Origin: Clostridia bacterium
GTDB taxonomy: Bacteria > Bacillota > Clostridia > Christensenellales > Aristaeellaceae
Direction of reading: 5' to 3'
DNA: 64,000 nt
Assembly (NCBI GenBank): GCA_017447185.1
Contig: JAFSOC010000011.1
Coordinates: 1 to 64,000 of the forward strand
The position numbers were made by a program, and so were the translations under genes. Positions 2,131 through 10,059 of this stretch are shown in pieces. The notes under the pieces are model-generated. The model did no database searches, had not been told where the DNA came from, and saw only the letters and a list, made by a program, of their open reading frames with translations. The first letter of the stretch is position 1; each line of letters starts with the position of its first letter.

Positions 2131-3243
2131 TCAGTTTTTGAAAAACCTGGATGCAAGATACTCTGTCACCGTCTGCCCGCCGCTGGCACCCAGCTGCTGC
2201 AGGCAGGACAGGATCTCCATCTGCTTTTCCTTTGGCATCTTCCGGAGCGTGCCCAGCATGACTTCAGCGCTTTTCCATTTCTGCTGACTGATCTCGCTGA
2301 AACTGTCGGCCCCGGTGGATTCAAACAGGGAAAAAATAATCTCGGTAAAGGACTGCCGGTCCGCCTCGCTCATCTGGCCCAGCCAGTCACCCAGGGATTT
2401 CCGGACCAGCCGGCTGGTTTTCGTCAGTTCCGCCGGAACGAAGTGATTCCCCGATACATTCCAGCTGAACCCGTCATGCTGCAGGATGCCGGATTGGCTG
2501 CTTTTGACCACATGATGTTTCGCGGAAGAAGACAGCAGCAGACCGATGATGGATGTTTCCGGGATAATGCTGATCACCCGGGGAAGGATATGCTGGTACC
2601 CTTCGGCCTGGAGCGTTTCCTGCTGAAAACCGGGACCGTCATTGGAATACACCGCAAGAATGCGGTCCTGAACCTCCTGCCTGCAGAAGGCAGCCGCATA
2701 TATCGCCAGGTTCCCGCCCTTGGAGTGTCCTCCGACGCGCAGGCTGCCCGGAAAATCCCCGCCGACCTGATCCAGGTACCGGATCGCCCGGCGCTGCCCT
2801 TCTGTCTCCGGCATGAAGCTGAGATTGAAATCTTCCTTCCAGCCCACCAGGGTTCCGTCCGTCCCGCGGAATGCGATAAAAGCGGTCCGGTCCGGCAGCA
2901 GGATGGTAACCGCCGCGAACTGCATGTCCCGGTCGGTTTCGGTTTCATCCAGGTACCGGCACAGCCGGATGTCCCTGTAGCGGGCGCCGCAGAGCATTTT
3001 CTCCATCAGCAGCGGCGCTTTGGCCGTAAAGGATTTGTTCGCGAGAATCTCCTCATGCGTATGGCGGCGGAAGAAGGCCTGGCAGGCATCCTGCAGGGAG
3101 ACTTCTCCTCCGTCCATGGAAAGGATCCCGTCGAAATCCGTATAGGCAAGCTCAGAAAGAACCAGGTTGTCCACTTCATTGAAAGGATCGGCGTCAAAAG
3201 AGAGGTCGCACCGCCACTCCAGGTAGTCAAAGATATTTCCCAT
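2131..3243 (-). CDS. Mbeg1-like (DUF2974) alpha/beta-hydrolase family protein
   Basis: A 370-residue protein of the Mbeg1/DUF2974 family, an alpha/beta-hydrolase fold related to class 3 lipases. It has the N-terminal block LVLSELAYTDFDG, the strand AFRGTDGT (124-131), and the nucleophile elbow GHSKGG (172-177, Ser174). The C-terminal region is mostly helical, and no signal peptide is visible. Lipid or ester hydrolysis is likely from the fold, but the substrate is unknown. It lies 18 bases downstream of a GNAT gene on the same strand. Confidence 0.82.
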   Translation of the reverse strand: MGNIFDYLEWRCDLSFDADPFNEVDNLVLSELAYTDFDGILSMDGGEVSLQDACQAFFRRHTHEEILANKSFTAKAPLLMEKMLCGARYRDIRLCRYLDETETDRDMQFAAVTILLPDRTAFIAFRGTDGTLVGWKEDFNLSFMPETEGQRRAIRYLDQVGGDFPGSLRVGGHSKGGNLAIYAAAFCRQEVQDRILAVYSNDGPGFQQETLQAEGYQHILPRVISIIPETSIIGLLLSSSAKHHVVKSSQSGILQHDGFSWNVSGNHFVPAELTKTSRLVRKSLGDWLGQMSEADRQSFTEIIFSLFESTGADSFSEISQQKWKSAEVMLGTLRKMPKEKQMEILSCLQQLGASGGQTVTEYLASRFFKN

Positions 3244-3261
3244 AATGATTTCTTCCCTTCC

Positions 3262-3819
3262 TTATCCGGAAGTCCGTTCCGACCGCAGGATGGAGTACCA
3301 GCTTGCATCGCAGATGCCCGTGTTGTTCCGGTCCGCAGCCCGTCTTGTTCCCTCGTACTTCATTCCGCAGTGCTTCATGACCATTCCCGAATGGGGATTG
3401 TTGGGATCGTGATAGGAGCAGATACTGTTCGCCCGGACCTCATCAAAGAAAAAGTCAATCACCGCCTGCGCGGCTTCAGACATGATTCCCTGGTGCCACC
3501 AGGCCTTTCCGAGGCAGTACCCGATCTGCACCGATTCCAGATCGTCGTTCGCCAGGCCGTGAATGGTCCCGATCGGGTCATCCCCGCTTTCTTTCAGGGT
3601 AATGGCCCAGTGGTAATAATCCGGCTTTTCATAGAGGGGAAGCCAGGTTCCGATAATATGCCTCGTCACTTCCGGGTCTGTATGCACAGGCCAGGTCAGG
3701 AACCGGGTAACCTCCGGATCGGAGGCCCAGTTCCTGTACATGGTGTCCGCGTCGGACAGCATCAGCCGCCGCAGCACCAGTCTCCCGGTTTCCAGTTTCT
3801 GTGTTCCGCAATGATTCAT
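3262..3819 (-). CDS. GNAT family N-acetyltransferase (RimJ/RimL type)
   Basis: A 185-residue acetyltransferase. The start LETGRLVLRRL is the typical RimJ/RimL/SpeG-like opening that leads into beta-1. The acetyl-CoA loop is WWHQGIMSEA, a slightly divergent version of the Q/R-x-x-G-x-G/A motif. The acceptor substrate is unknown. GAGAGG lies eight bases before the ATG. It sits between the ADA-like gene and the Mbeg1-like gene in a same-strand run. Confidence 0.88.
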   Translation of the reverse strand: MNHCGTQKLETGRLVLRRLMLSDADTMYRNWASDPEVTRFLTWPVHTDPEVTRHIIGTWLPLYEKPDYYHWAITLKESGDDPIGTIHGLANDDLESVQIGYCLGKAWWHQGIMSEAAQAVIDFFFDEVRANSICSYHDPNNPHSGMVMKHCGMKYEGTRRAADRNNTGICDASWYSILRSERTSG

Positions 3820-3861
3820 AGTGCAGGCCTCTCTGTTCGTCTCATATCTGCGTCCGGATCC

Positions 3862-6303
3862 TTATCTGTTTTCCTCCGCCGCCAGAATTTCCTCCGCGCT
3901 TCCCATCTTCTGTACATAGCCGTCCAGCATCTTTGCCTTCTCCGTCAGTCCGCGGGACCGCGGGTTGATATAGATCCGGTGACGGTTGCTGCTGTTGCGT
4001 GCCTGCTGGATCAGGTTCAGCGCGGCGGAGTTTCCGTCAAACGCCAGCAGTACGGAAGGCCTGTTCCGGAAGACTTCGTAGGAAACGCTCTTATACAGGC
4101 CGAGCCCGGAGCTCTCGATGGAGATCAGGATCCCGACGCCTGCCGCGCGGAGCACCTCCGCCGCCGTCCGCGGCAGCCGGTTGGGCACCACGGCGCACAC
4201 CCTGAACCGCCCCGCCGCCTGCCGGACCAGGTATCCCTCCTGCCCCAGCAGCGTATGGCCGATCACAAAGAAGACCTTCTCCGGATCCGCCTTCACCAGC
4301 AGTTCGTCGATCAGCGCACGGTCTTCTTTCCGGATCGTCGTCCGACGGGCATTGCTGTTGAAGCTGCCGCCGCAGATCACGATGGGGAGCATACCCTCCG
4401 GCAGCACCGCCAGCCGGTCCTTCAGGGCTTCCTCCGCACTGACGGTCTTTCCGGACTGATGCAGGATAATACCCGGCTTGCCGGTCTTCTCCAGCACATG
4501 TTCATAGTACTGCTCGATATCGTTCCCGGCGCATGCCTGCCGGAAGCGGGCCTGTTTCCCTTCAAACGTCCTGATGCTGGCCTCCAGCAGTTCATCCTCT
4601 CCCTGCCGCATCCGCCGCAGTTCTTTCGTCCCGAGCCCCAGCAGTTTTTCCAGGCTCAGTTCCTCATCGATGGAGTTGGTTCCGTACAGCGCGCCGCCGT
4701 CCGTTCCCTGCACGCAGCGGACCCCCGCCTGCAGGTACTGCCGCAGGGGATATTTTTCCAGGGAGCTCAGGTTGTTCAGCCGCACATTTGAGGTGATCTG
4801 GAATTCAAGGGTCACATTGTTTTCCCGCATTTCCTCCAGCAGTTTTTTGCCCTTCGCGCTCTGCAGGTTGCAGGTATACAGTCCGTGGCCGATCCGCAGG
4901 GGCGGCATCTCCTGTCCCGGGGCCAGGGCTTCCTTCACGCAGTGGATACTGTTTGCCACGTTGTCCCGCAGGCTGTCGTTCTCCCCTGCGTGAATGCGGA
5001 TCACGAACCCGGGATGATCCCCGGCCAGCGCAGTCAGTTCCCGAATCACACCGCGGAGCTCCAGGATATCGTTGATCTCCTCGCCGATAATATCCGCGCC
5101 GGCCACATACGGATCATCCGCGACGGCCCGCAGACACCGCAGGTTTTCCGCCAGGTAATCCGCCGGGGTCATGCGGTCCTGCACAATGGTCAGGGGAACC
5201 CGGCGGATTCCCGCCAGGAAGCGGAGCAGTACGCCGGTCTCCCGGGTGACCTGCGGCATGATCTCATGGATCTCCCGCAGCCTGGCCGGGAAAAGTGCGC
5301 TGTTCAGCAGCGCCGTATCGGAAATCTCCGCGTATTCGATCCCGTACCGCCTGTAAGTCCGGGCAATCCACAGCAGCAGGTCCTGGAACAGCGTATTCCG
5401 GCAGTACCGGTCTACCTCCCGGTCCTGCTGCATTTTTTCCGCATAAGCCCGCACTTCCGGATCGGGAATCCCGGCGGGATTGATCCCGCTAAAATGGAAG
5501 TCGGAAGGCTTTCCGCGGGTGAATACATAGCGGTACAGGTACACCTTCTCCAGATCGGCAAAAACCGCCTGGCCATCTTTCGGAATGGTCAGGGAATTCC
5601 GGATGCGGCCGATGTTTTCCGCCGCATGCTTCGGATTGCCGAGGATCAGGTCCGCGAAATTAATAAACGTGAAATCGTCGATCCGGCGTTCCCTGTGGCG
5701 TCCGGTCAGAACGGTATCCCCCAGCTTCTCCTCCGCCGCCCTGCGGGCCTCTTCCAGCCTGGAAACCTGTTCCGCCGTGCATTTCAGCCCCAGCTTCTTG
5801 ATATAGTAATACGGATACCGGATCTGGTGGATCAGGCCCAGCGCGATCAGCACGTCCGGCGGCAGGTTGCCGTTCATATGTGTGTGCAGGTCCGTCCGGA
5901 ACTTGCAGTCGCTGCGGATATAGGTCTTCACGATCGTTTTTTCGACGCCCAGCCGGTAATCCTTCGTCTGGCTCATCAGCGTCTTGGAAATGGCAGGAAT
6001 GGATGCCTTCAGCTCCACCCGTCCGTCCGGGTAGATATTGGCAATCTTCGTATTGCCCAGGCGCAGGATATACATCCGCTCGTTGTTTCCGTCAAAGTAA
6101 CAGGGGATCTCGTCCCGGATGACCTTCAGGCCGTTTTCGTCCGTGCCGGTTTCCAGTCCGCACAGCACGGCCAGGTTCGTAATCAGGTTGCCGGTCCGGT
6201 GGTTCGGCGTATGGATCTCATAGAACAGGCGTTCTCCCTGCAGATACAGTTCCACGGCCAGGTCCTTTTCCCGGTCCAGGTAGAATTTACGGAAGAAGAT
6301 CAT
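3862..6303 (-). CDS. Adenosine deaminase-like amidohydrolase fused to a C-terminal Rossmann/SLOG-like domain
   Basis: An 813-residue protein, more than twice the length of a normal adenosine deaminase (about 330-350). Residues 1-130 are an unassigned beta-rich N-terminal region. Residues 135-600 carry every adenosine-deaminase metal and catalytic motif: H140-T-H142, HAGE at 438-441, the GHG histidine H473, TSN at 505-507 and Asp535 in GTDGG. In classical enzymes that last motif reads TDDP. Large helical insertions separate the motifs. Residues 636-805 look like a separate Rossmann or SLOG-like nucleotide-binding domain, with CGGS at its first turn and alternating hydrophobic strands. The start follows AAGGAAAAGGA, seven bases after the upstream ABC ATPase. 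The substrate is unknown; adenosine or a related nucleotide is a guess. Confidence 0.75.
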   Translation of the reverse strand: MIFFRKFYLDREKDLAVELYLQGERLFYEIHTPNHRTGNLITNLAVLCGLETGTDENGLKVIRDEIPCYFDGNNERMYILRLGNTKIANIYPDGRVELKASIPAISKTLMSQTKDYRLGVEKTIVKTYIRSDCKFRTDLHTHMNGNLPPDVLIALGLIHQIRYPYYYIKKLGLKCTAEQVSRLEEARRAAEEKLGDTVLTGRHRERRIDDFTFINFADLILGNPKHAAENIGRIRNSLTIPKDGQAVFADLEKVYLYRYVFTRGKPSDFHFSGINPAGIPDPEVRAYAEKMQQDREVDRYCRNTLFQDLLLWIARTYRRYGIEYAEISDTALLNSALFPARLREIHEIMPQVTRETGVLLRFLAGIRRVPLTIVQDRMTPADYLAENLRCLRAVADDPYVAGADIIGEEINDILELRGVIRELTALAGDHPGFVIRIHAGENDSLRDNVANSIHCVKEALAPGQEMPPLRIGHGLYTCNLQSAKGKKLLEEMRENNVTLEFQITSNVRLNNLSSLEKYPLRQYLQAGVRCVQGTDGGALYGTNSIDEELSLEKLLGLGTKELRRMRQGEDELLEASIRTFEGKQARFRQACAGNDIEQYYEHVLEKTGKPGIILHQSGKTVSAEEALKDRLAVLPEGMLPIVICGGSFNSNARRTTIRKEDRALIDELLVKADPEKVFFVIGHTLLGQEGYLVRQAAGRFRVCAVVPNRLPRTAAEVLRAAGVGILISIESSGLGLYKSVSYEVFRNRPSVLLAFDGNSAALNLIQQARNSSNRHRIYINPRSRGLTEKAKMLDGYVQKMGSAEEILAAEENR

Positions 6304-6309
6304 TCGTTC

Positions 6310-7407
6310 TCAGTCCTTTTCCTTGCGAATCCGAAGAATAATCCGGTTGGGGTATTCCCTGTCATCGGTGTAGAAATACTGCTGTTCCGTAAAAGTGCTG
6401 CTCAGCACTTCCAGCTCCAGGGCGCGGTCCTGCCCGAATACGTCGTATTCCGGACCGTTCCAGCGGACGTTCATCACTGCGCCTTCCTCTTCCGAATACT
6501 CAATAGCGGTATGAATCTGCGGCGCCTCCAGGATGGGAAGCAGCAGGTTATGCACCAGTTCCTCAAAGGCCAGGCGGATGCGGGCGCCTGTCTTCCAGGG
6601 AATCTGGTTCTTGCTGCAGTAGCGGTCGATTTCGCTGGCCGCACCCCGGAAATCATAATCCTTGCTTTCAATTTCAAGTTCGAGTACTTTCAGCCTGCGG
6701 ATAAACCGGCGGGTGTTTTCCCGCTGCGGGTTTTCAAAGATCTGCTCCGGCGACCCGTCCTCATAGATACCGCCTTCGTCCATGTAGAACACACGGTTAC
6801 TGATCGCCCGGGCGAAGCTCATTTCGTGGGTCACGATCATCATCGTCTTCCCGGTCTTTGCCAGGTCCCGGATAACGGATTGAACCTCCTCCACCATGGT
6901 CGGGTCCAGCGCACTTGTGGGCTCGTCAAACAGGATGATTTCCGGATCCATCGCCAACGCCCGGGCGATGGCAATCCGCTGCTTCTGCCCGCCGGACAGC
7001 TCATCCGGATAGTTCAGCGCCTTTTCCGCCAGGCCCACCATGCGCAGCAGACGCATCCCTTCGTCATAGGCTTTCTGCTTCTCCCAGCCCAACAGTTCCA
7101 TCGGTGCGAACATGATGTTTTCGATCACCGTCATATGGCCGAACAGGTTGAAGGACTGGAACACCATGCCCAGCTTCCGGCGCACTTTTCCCAGGTCGCA
7201 CTTCGGGTCCGTCACATCCACGCCGTTGACCCAGATATGCCCTGACGTTGGTTTCTCCAGCATATTGATGCAGCGCAGGAGTGTGCTCTTGCCCGTACCT
7301 GAGGGACCGATCACGGAGATGATATCGCCCTCGTCGATCTCCACGGATACGTCTTCCAGGGGCGTAACATTCGCATATGCCTTTTTCAGGTGTTCGATCT
7401 TAATCAT
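6310..7407 (-). CDS. Polar amino-acid ABC transporter ATPase with an RsbW-like C-terminal extension
   Basis: The first 240 residues are a GlnQ/HisP-type ATPase: Walker A GPSGTGKS (34-41), signature LSGGQ (137-141), Walker B IILFDE (157-162) and switch histidine H194. A normal subunit ends near residue 245, but this one continues to 365. The tail contains FEELVHN (281-287), resembling the N-box helix of GHKL/RsbW anti-sigma kinases, and ends in beta-strands. Its function is unknown. The gene overlaps the permease 3' end by 8 bases and is followed after 6 bases by the ADA-like gene, so all are probably co-transcribed. Confidence 0.88.
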   Translation of the reverse strand: MIKIEHLKKAYANVTPLEDVSVEIDEGDIISVIGPSGTGKSTLLRCINMLEKPTSGHIWVNGVDVTDPKCDLGKVRRKLGMVFQSFNLFGHMTVIENIMFAPMELLGWEKQKAYDEGMRLLRMVGLAEKALNYPDELSGGQKQRIAIARALAMDPEIILFDEPTSALDPTMVEEVQSVIRDLAKTGKTMMIVTHEMSFARAISNRVFYMDEGGIYEDGSPEQIFENPQRENTRRFIRRLKVLELEIESKDYDFRGAASEIDRYCSKNQIPWKTGARIRLAFEELVHNLLLPILEAPQIHTAIEYSEEEGAVMNVRWNGPEYDVFGQDRALELEVLSSTFTEQQYFYTDDREYPNRIILRIRKEKD

Positions 7408-7666
7408 GCCGGTTCACCCCCTTCAGAACGGTCTCTGATGTCCGCCGCCGCGGGTTCACCCGGATCTGGATCCTGCCCACGAAGAACGCCAGCAGGTCTT
7501 CCAGCAGGAAATAGATAACCGTAATCGCAATCAGGGGGAAGAAGGCCTCATAGGTACGGCTGCGCACGATATCGCCCATCTTCGTCAGGTCCTGCACCGC
7601 GATATAGCCGACAATGGACGTGGCCTTGATGAGGCTCACAATTTCACCCTGGTACGGCGGCAGCAC
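7400..7666 (-). pseudogene. C-terminal part of the amino-acid ABC permease, downstream of an in-frame amber codon
   Basis: This segment continues, in the same reading frame, the permease that stops at 7679-7681. It holds the end of the EAA-type loop and the last transmembrane segments (PPYQGEIVSLIKATSIVGY, then FFPLIAITVIYFLLEDLLA). It could initiate at a GTG at 7666, but alone it lacks most of the permease core and has no convincing ribosome site. It is therefore annotated as the 3' part of a disrupted gene. Readthrough would restore a 748-residue fusion. Confidence 0.75.
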
Positions 7667-7678
7667 ATGGGGCAGTGC

Positions 7679-9646
7679 CTAGGGCAGGATGATTTTGAAG
7701 AACGTCTTCTTCCTGGAACAGCCCAGTGCGTACGCCGCTTCGTACTGTCCCTTTTCAATCGTACCGACACCCAGCTTCAGCAGACTGTAAACTGAAGACC
7801 CGAAGGTCAGTGTGAAGCCGATCACCGCCACGACAACCCCGCTGATCGATACGTTCCCGAAGATGATGTAATACAGGATCATCAGCAGTACCACCGCAGG
7901 CATGCCCTGCACCAGCTTGATGCAGATCCGGGTTATAAAATTGGCCACAGCGTTCCCATTCCGGCACAACATGAACACCCCAAAGCCGAGCAGGGTTCCA
8001 AACAGGATCGCCAGCGCCGTAATGACCAGGGTCGTCACGACGCCGTCCGTGAACAGCTTCCAGCGTTCCTCCCGGATGAAAGTCTTCTCGAAGCTTTCCG
8101 CCAGTGTATCCCAGAAGGAGGGACCTCCTGCGGCCTCCTGCGGTCTGAGCACCGCCAGCACGGAAAGGCTTGTGAATGTGGGGTCGGAAAACAGTACGCT
8201 TTCCGCCCGCTCTGCCGTGTACGCGATTCCGCTGCTGGCAAAGTCAACCTTCCCGGTCAGCACAGAGGGAATGATTCCGGAGAAATCCATCTGTACCACC
8301 TGCAGGCCGTAACCGTATTCCTCGCAAAAGCGGTAAACCGTTTCAATATCGATCCCCGCCGGTTCCCCGTTGATCAGATAGACGAAGGGGACGATCGTCG
8401 CATCCGTTGCCATCCGCAGAGTGCCCTTCGTCGCTTCCAGGCTTTCCAGGTCGGGAGCCAGGCGCCTGGATTCATCCACACCAAACCAGGCGTTCTGGAT
8501 TTCTTCCTGTACACCGTTTTCCTTGATTTTACTGAGAAACGCATTGAATTCTGCGCACAGTTCACGGCCTTTGTCCGTCTTCGGGAACACCGCCCCGATA
8601 TCCATCGTCTCGCCGATCCCTTCCTCGAGGAACATCAGGTCCGGGTTTTCCGCCATCATATATTTCACATTCGCGATGGCGGAGGCATACGCGTCAATTT
8701 TACCCGCCCGCAGCGCGCTGAGCATATCTACGTCGGAATTGAAGTAGAACAGTTTCGCGTTCGGGAACAGTTTTTCGACCTGCATCACCTGGACGCTTCC
8801 GGTCATGACGCCGATGCGCTTGTCCTTAAGCTGCTCCTGCGTCAGGGCAGATAGTTCAGCATCCTTTTTCATCACAGCCATCAGGACATGGCCGGAATAG
8901 TATGGATCAGAGAACAGGATACTTTGCTTCCGCTCTTCGGTAATGGTAAACGAGGAAAGTGAAAAATCCGCTTTGCCCGTCTGGATCGCGGACAGGATCC
9001 CTTCAAAGTTCGCGGCTCCCACCGTCAGCCCGTATCCCTTCGCTTCACAGAACAGGGCAGCCAGCTCCACATCCATGCCGACTATTTCCTCGCCCCGGAA
9101 ATAGTTCATCGGAGCAAATGTTCCGGCTGTCAGCATAACGAGCGTACCCCTGGTCGCCGGGAAGGATTCATAGTCCGGAAGCGTTTTGTCCGCTTCTTTT
9201 CCCTCCGTCCATTTGACAGTGATCCGGTCCAGCTCGCCGCTCGCCTTCAGATTCGCGAGCCACCCGTTAAATTCATCCCGGAGCGTCTCACCCGCATCGG
9301 TTTTCGTAAATACGGCGCCGTACTCAACGGCCTCCAGTCCCGCATCCCGGGAAGCCAGCCTGCTGTTTTCCGTGAGCAGCAGCTTCATCGGAGGTTCGTC
9401 ACATGGGAAAGCATCAATCTTTCCGGTTTCCAGTGCGGCAACCATATCCGACATGCTGTTGAAGTAGCTGAGCTCCGCATCCGGAATCACTTCCAGCACA
9501 AGGTGGTCAAAGACCGAGCCCATCTGTATGCCGATCCGCTTGCCGCCCGGTCCGCCGGCCGCGCTGTTCCCGTCCGCAAAGGCAGAGCAGATCCCGCAAA
9601 ACAGGATCAGGCACAGCGCCAGGCATCCGATCCGTTTCCTGATCAT
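7679..9646 (-). CDS. Amino-acid ABC substrate-binding/permease fusion, 5' part ending at an in-frame TAG
   Basis: The 655-residue open part starts with a signal peptide (about residues 1-25). It continues with family-3 solute-binding lobes in the order lobe 2, lobe 1, lobe 2, lobe 1, and then about 130 residues of a His/Glu/Gln-type permease. The frame ends with FFKIILP followed by TAG. Homologous permeases have Gln here (LPQAL...LPPYxGE), and the frame continues seamlessly through 7400, so a CAG-to-TAG change is the simplest reading. If the protein terminates here, the last transmembrane helices are missing and the transporter is probably dead. The ATPase gene follows immediately. Confidence 0.82.
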   Translation of the reverse strand: MIRKRIGCLALCLILFCGICSAFADGNSAAGGPGGKRIGIQMGSVFDHLVLEVIPDAELSYFNSMSDMVAALETGKIDAFPCDEPPMKLLLTENSRLASRDAGLEAVEYGAVFTKTDAGETLRDEFNGWLANLKASGELDRITVKWTEGKEADKTLPDYESFPATRGTLVMLTAGTFAPMNYFRGEEIVGMDVELAALFCEAKGYGLTVGAANFEGILSAIQTGKADFSLSSFTITEERKQSILFSDPYYSGHVLMAVMKKDAELSALTQEQLKDKRIGVMTGSVQVMQVEKLFPNAKLFYFNSDVDMLSALRAGKIDAYASAIANVKYMMAENPDLMFLEEGIGETMDIGAVFPKTDKGRELCAEFNAFLSKIKENGVQEEIQNAWFGVDESRRLAPDLESLEATKGTLRMATDATIVPFVYLINGEPAGIDIETVYRFCEEYGYGLQVVQMDFSGIIPSVLTGKVDFASSGIAYTAERAESVLFSDPTFTSLSVLAVLRPQEAAGGPSFWDTLAESFEKTFIREERWKLFTDGVVTTLVITALAILFGTLLGFGVFMLCRNGNAVANFITRICIKLVQGMPAVVLLMILYYIIFGNVSISGVVVAVIGFTLTFGSSVYSLLKLGVGTIEKGQYEAAYALGCSRKKTFFKIILP

Positions 9647-9675
9647 GTTCCTCTCACTCCCGATACTGTCTCTGT

Positions 9676-10059
9676 TTATACCATCTTTCCGTCTTCAACC
9701 CGTACGGCAATCTGCCAGTCGTCCTCATAGACAATGGTCCCGACAGCATTGGTATAAACAATATCATAGGGATGGCTGTATTTGTCCAGGATCCGCACCG
9801 CCGATGCGATCTTTTCCTGCATCTCCCCGGTGGTTCCGGTTTTGAAGAAGGTGATCACCTTCTCATTGTTTTTACAGGGTTCCGGTTCCGGCAGGTTTTC
9901 TTTGAACCAGTCGTCAATCTCCCGGAATGACTTCTCATCCTCCGGCTGCATGATCCCGTCCTGGATCATCCGCCAGCAGATACTGAAAATCCCCTTGGGA
10001 TACCCGGTGATCCAGGAGTCCTCCCGGCCCTGGATTCTCATATACCTGCACCCGTTCAT
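9676..10059 (-). CDS. Hypothetical protein
   Basis: A 127-residue soluble protein that I do not recognise. It is rich in charged and aromatic residues (CRYMRIQGREDSWITGYPKG near the N-terminus) and has no membrane segment, signal peptide or metal motif. Its ATG overlaps the TGA of the upstream CDF transporter gene (ATGA), and AGAAGGA lies upstream, so translation is coupled to the transporter. This supports a real gene, but gives no function. Confidence 0.7.
   Translation of the reverse strand: MNGCRYMRIQGREDSWITGYPKGIFSICWRMIQDGIMQPEDEKSFREIDDWFKENLPEPEPCKNNEKVITFFKTGTTGEMQEKIASAVRILDKYSHPYDIVYTNAVGTIVYEDDWQIAVRVEDGKMV

Follow-up and report, generated by a model that had tools for sequence, protein, structure and literature searches.

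Positions 1 to 64,000 of contig JAFSOC010000011.1, from a Clostridia bacterium of the Aristaeellaceae, form the stretch that we analysed (hereafter the window). Its minus strand encodes, at 3862-6303, an 813-residue protein in which a barrel of the adenosine deaminase (ADA) type lies between a strand-rich N-terminal part and a C-terminal domain with a SLOG-type fold. We give an even chance to the proposal that this protein is a resident, ligand-regulated purine-nucleotide deaminase. The combination of ADA with a nucleotide-sensing Rossmann-like domain is already known as a kind, from Cad1. Our literature search, whose coverage leaves out most subscription journals, found no ADA-SLOG protein and thus no description of the SLOG variant, of its N-terminal part or of its resident distribution.

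The ADA-like fusion described in an earlier reading made from the sequence only proved to be a real gene: the open reading frame (ORF) is intact and starts with ATG, and it has numerous full-length relatives. The Pfam scan of the whole protein returned a sole family, PF00962, at 57.5 bits (cut-off 27). The AlphaFold2 model, with a predicted local distance difference test (pLDDT) score of 85.6 and a predicted template modelling (pTM) score of 0.79, shows the three parts listed in Table 1. The gene is under purifying selection, with ratios of nonsynonymous to synonymous substitution (dN/dS) of about 0.07-0.31 across the three parts in all four relatives compared. Two long ORFs of the opposite (plus) strand, at 2443-4791 and 4885-7245, overlap it.

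To describe the active site we used an alignment of 113 rows, i.e., the window protein and 112 distinct ORF sequences from 147 loci that include refetched copies of the window gene. The metal and catalytic residues of the PF00962 family (motifs HxH, HAGE, GHG and TD) are kept in every row, as H140, H142, H438, E441, H473 and D535, and both the barrel fold and the Pfam match above cut-off agree with membership of that family. Because these residues are invariant, the barrel is probably active. The claim of the sequence-only reading that all classical ADA motifs are kept thus holds for the metal ligands and for the catalytic E441 and H473, but not for two further positions, which carry N144 and G536 in all 113 rows. 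From the HxHxD motif, we take N144 to be at the position of Asp19 of mouse ADA. G536 is placed at Asp296 because D535-G536 falls on the Ser-Asp-Asp motif of a Plasmodium enzyme. In mouse ADA, both aspartates contact adenosine (PMC12669630). The pair that marks a canonical adenosine deaminase is therefore absent throughout the alignment, and the best score against the NCBIfam equivalog for adenosine deaminase, 48.2 bits, is far under its cut-off of 459. These data support the view that the protein is not an ordinary adenosine deaminase. Since the two aspartates that hold adenosine are lost, a different substrate is indicated, which we regard as a hint and not as proof. The closest sequence and structure matches of the barrel are adenosine, adenine or (N6-methyl-)AMP deaminases.

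In the model, the C-terminal part stands apart as a Rossmann-like domain, with the SLOG-type fold of the SLOG superfamily. It is not folded into the ADA domain, the outcome that the sequence-only reading had named as one that would refute it. Its loop residues G645, G646, S647, F648, G682, E689, Y737, K738, E743 and G757 are invariant in the 113 rows, and E730, D756 and N758 are kept in 112 of them. The catalytic motifs of LOG phosphoribohydrolases are RK and PGGxGTxxE. Unlike LOG, the window protein has, judged by eye and in a register set without a significant alignment, a DGNxAAxNL loop in place of PGGxGTxxE. The SLOG proteins matched include TRPM MHR1/2, DprA, LOG and the Moco carrier protein, and no listed match was named as carrying an ADA barrel. 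ThsA was not among the best 50 matches of this comparison, an absence that does not speak against a likeness.

The N-terminal part has its strands between residues 2 and 98 of the model. No Pfam family covers it in the window protein, and its best match among PDB sequences has an E-value of only 0.22. A profile of this part retrieved the same protein family from seven of 291 genomes of the class, the own genome counted, with E-values of 1.6e-50 or better. It gave three further weak matches (E 0.003-0.006), and the one that we inspected is presumably a VanW-like protein. In these 291 genomes, the C-terminal domain occurs only within the full-length protein, and the same is true of the N-terminal domain if one sets aside the three weak matches.

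Relatives of full length, with the three parts in this order, were found in 37 of 150 sampled genomes of the family, a few as pieces at contig ends (every genome count includes the window's or the centre genome). The gene is present in 34 of the 45 genomes of its own genus and in 11 of the 13 with a completeness of 90% or more and no more than 5% contamination, which we call good genomes. It is also common in a second genus, from another family, with 45 of 61 genomes and 31 of 35 good ones. Further away it becomes rare: 7/291 genomes of the class, counted via the C-terminal domain, and 2/398 of the phylum. Among the 48 good genomes of both genera, six are without it, which speaks against an essential role unless gaps in the assemblies are the cause. 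One full-length copy per genome is usual. Double matches are pieces on separate contigs; the exception is G902, where the second match is partial and contains a stop. A scan of the genome_contigs collection gave at least 595 pattern matches, at least 563 of them confirmed by tblastn as encoding a relative. We kept 80 of these loci for comparisons of flanks. Their record titles name uncultured or metagenome-assembled Clostridia, Oscillospiraceae/Ruminococcaceae, Lachnospiraceae, Blautia, Eubacterium and Solobacterium, and many mention the gut of goat, sheep, deer, buffalo or yak. No relative turned up in the plasmid and phage collections searched, and none of 43 pattern matches in viral contigs was one. 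A gene found in most good genomes of two genera, in one copy and in none of the mobile-element collections searched, is more likely to have a resident role. In a tree of 46 rows, the window protein is placed next to that of locus L032 (support 100/99).

Two side observations concern relatives of the gene. The motif HTHMN reads HTHAN in one of them (L155). The genome of another (L126) has a second ADA-like ORF, at 1456-1935 of the minus strand, of just 159 residues and without the HxH half, perhaps a remnant.

The closest functional parallel is Cad1. In TaqCad1, G264 and N549 stand at the positions of D19 and D296, and the enzyme scarcely acts on adenosine, converting adenosine triphosphate (ATP) to inosine triphosphate (ITP), while in Cad1 the barrel is reshaped when a ligand occupies the CARF domain (PMC12669630). 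The protein described here shares the enzyme class and has the same two substrate positions replaced. The Cad1 active-site residues H448, E451, H472 and D533 (PMC11645235) are spaced almost as H438, E441, H473 and D535 are here. CARF_ADA was the sole PADLOC model to match the window protein, in its ADA part only (residues 340-541; profile 365-546 of 605), and it matched 34 of 46 members at an E-value of 0.01 or better. Unlike in Cad1, the putative sensor is a C-terminal SLOG domain and not an N-terminal CARF domain, in whose place there is an additional strand-rich part of 120 residues. The chain exceeds the Cad1 chains matched by about 200 residues, and its gene has no conserved neighbour. 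This last result, across 95 loci and for neighbours of any kind, also gives no sign of an association with type III CRISPR, although cas genes were not sought as such.

We know of no SLOG domain in RdrB, in Helix pomatia AMP deaminase or in ADGF/ADA2. The last two are secreted animal enzymes (PMC10358891). RdrB, also of the ADA type, resembles the window protein in its large size, its N-terminal extension and the long distance from HxH to HAGE (H152/H154, H498/E501 and H530; PMC9994260). It was not among the best 50 matches, which does not speak against a likeness. None of the 46 members matched a PADLOC model named RdrB, although we did not check that the library holds one. No gene beside ours was conserved in the 95 loci, although RdrA, which is very divergent, was not itself searched for.

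Under the reading that we prefer, of a resident regulated deaminase, the SLOG domain would bind a nucleotide-type ligand in its glycine-rich loops, as its fold and invariant residues suggest. Binding would then alter the activity of the barrel, much as Cad1 is gated through its CARF domain and ThsA through its SLOG domain. In ThsA, SLOG domains bind cyclic ADP-ribose isomers (PMC11204291). The barrel, whose residues fit the usual metal/Glu/His chemistry, would deaminate an adenine compound. The loss of D19 and D296 suggests that this is most likely a 5'-phosphorylated adenine nucleotide, e.g., ATP, dATP or AMP. The strand-rich N-terminal part is probably for assembly, which is a guess. Sensor-gated deamination of ATP is already known from CRISPR Cad1, and deamination of ATP from RADAR. 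Here a Cad1-type enzyme, with the same two substrate positions changed, is joined to another sensor fold, and the majority of good genomes in two genera encode it. If the proposal is true, cells would use deamination of their adenine pool as a resident means of control, beyond the response to phages, and the label "adenosine deaminase" suggested by the Pfam match would mislead.

Several points weigh against this proposal. When both residues of TaqCad1 were reverted to the canonical ones, activity on adenosine rose but was not restored (PMC12669630), so the two residues alone do not set specificity. The SLOG assignment comes from the fold alone: no Pfam SLOG family was found in 13 members at an E-value of 5, three of these 13 gave a weak match to Toprim_2 (best E 0.072), and hhalign comparisons of the domain with six LOG proteins were not significant. 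The PGGxGT loop of LOG is unrecognisable by eye, and the content of the pocket is a matter of prediction. No conserved gene that might make a signal was found nearby in the 95 loci. The reading itself is drawn from sequence, fold and analogy, and the ligand, the activity and the oligomer are all predicted.

The sequence-only reading had also pointed to nucleotide signalling. This is still plausible, though unproven. In its boldest form, which we hold to be rather unlikely, the protein would be a widely carried signalling switch in Clostridia of the gut. Binding of a stress nucleotide or second messenger, e.g., of the ADP-ribose type, to the SLOG domain would switch on the conversion of ATP or another adenine nucleotide to its inosine form, and the protein would serve growth control as a resident equivalent of Cad1 that does not depend on CRISPR. 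A plainer alternative, somewhat doubtful in our view, is a metabolic deaminase of nucleotides or similar compounds without any signalling, whose SLOG domain would provide a second site, for catalysis or for handling the product. That no LOG-type phosphoribohydrolase loop is recognisable by eye argues against it, as does the lack of the gene from the six good genomes mentioned above, which may mean that it is dispensable unless gaps in the assemblies are to blame. We see little prospect for a barrel acting on another aminopurine or a pterin-like compound, with an allosteric or structural SLOG domain, since its closest matches are the adenine-type deaminases named above.

The remaining alternative is an effector against phages that would correspond to Cad1 or RdrB without depending on CRISPR: a signal made on infection would reach the SLOG domain, and the barrel would turn ATP into ITP. 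The enzyme class and the two replaced positions are those of Cad1, and genes with a TIR_2 domain are commoner in carriers, with 21/37 genomes against 24/113 (Fisher p 0.00013) and 9/9 carrier genera against 16/41 (p 0.0016). Such an excess would suit a TIR-made signal for the SLOG domain. However, LOG genes (PF03641) show a similar excess (17/37 against 18/113, p 0.0005; 6/9 against 7/41 genera, p 0.006), and therefore the association with TIR is not specific; shared ancestry, genome size or sampling may lie behind both. A gene that we take to encode a TIR-WD40-like protein of 993 residues (domains assigned by eye; 6845-9823, minus strand) does adjoin the relative in L032, but this is the only TIR neighbour among 97 sequences (the 80 genome_contigs loci, 16 fetched regions and the window, searched with one TIR query at E 1e-3). 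The defence role put forward in the sequence-only reading also fits poorly with a gene found in most good genomes of two genera, with low dN/dS in four of four pairs, no relative in the plasmid, phage and viral-contig searches, and no conserved partner. We consider it improbable. The TIR-WD40-like gene of L032 is oriented divergently to the relative, and a second, weaker TIR match is adjacent to it. We also considered, and dropped, a replacement of LOG by this gene: none of 12 carriers had PF03641, and the wider count given above shows the opposite.

Table 1. Location in the window of the gene, its parts and its two upstream neighbours.
Feature	Positions	Strand	Evidence and remarks
Whole gene, three-part ADA-like/SLOG protein	3862..6303	-	Open frame; PF00962 57.5 bits; AlphaFold2 model
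N-terminal part, residues 1-120, strand-rich	5944..6303	-	AlphaFold2 model
ADA-type barrel, residues about 126-583	4555..5928	-	Metal H140/H142/H438/D535; predicted catalysis E441/H473; N144/G536 replacing D19/D296
SLOG-type domain, residues about 620-800	3904..4446	-	Loops GGSF 645-648, G682, YK 737-738, DGN 756-758
ABC ATPase with 126-residue tail; neighbour outside any conserved unit	6310..7407	-	PF00005 E 2.4e-37
Substrate-binding/permease ORF; neighbour outside any conserved unit	7679..9646	-	SBP_bac_3 + BPD_transp_1; ends at in-frame TAG

In the window, the gene lies behind an ABC ATPase and a substrate-binding/permease ORF and begins 6 nucleotides past the end of the ATPase ORF, an arrangement that is local to the window. 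The coupling to an amino-acid transporter that the sequence-only reading had drawn from it did not survive comparison. We compared 80 loci, 55 of them with flanks of 3 kb on each side, and then 95 loci out of 96, of which 82 had 2.5 kb of sequence upstream and 83 had as much downstream (clustering at E 1e-10), leaving out L155 for its HTHAN motif. Substrate-binding/permease matches occur in the flanks of only 4/80 loci, at 24-34% identity and 3.9-7.8 kb away. ATPase-like matches occur in 26/80 (24-49%; the nearest about 0.3 kb away, in L106, at 29%), a level expected for common ABC proteins. In six further genomes that have both the gene and the tailed ATPase (G011, G016, G026, G044, G074 and G076), the two are on separate contigs, and we rejected a functional tie. 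Across the 95 loci, some with incomplete flanks, no neighbour is conserved. The commonest cluster, of ABC type, is found at 17 loci and the next, presumably MATE-like, at 13, both in varying positions. The only tight arrangement, a run of downstream genes, is shared by no more than 11 loci, which seem to belong to a single lineage. In 28 of 82 loci, an ORF of 150 residues or more on the same strand ends 60 bp or less upstream of the gene, a number that spurious long ORFs may inflate. Rfam gave no match of any kind, riboswitches included, in 20 short loci, and just a cut tRNA in the window.

The tail of the ATPase is as unusual as had been noted from the sequence: its 126 residues (6313-6690, minus strand) match no Pfam family. 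It was found again in 17 of 100 genomes of the family, its own counted, with three copies in the window's genome. Its carriers are ABC ATPases of about 365 residues and, more weakly, ORFs of 1139-1180 residues. The substrate-binding/permease ORF contains three substrate-binding-domain stretches and part of a permease, and stops in the middle of that domain at the in-frame TAG. The permease frame stays open beyond it to about 7405 (7405-7679, minus strand), and the TAG is either a nonsense change or an assembly error. On the other side of the deaminase-like gene and on the same strand, an Mbeg1-like gene (PF11187; 2131-3243) lies downstream of a GNAT acetyltransferase.
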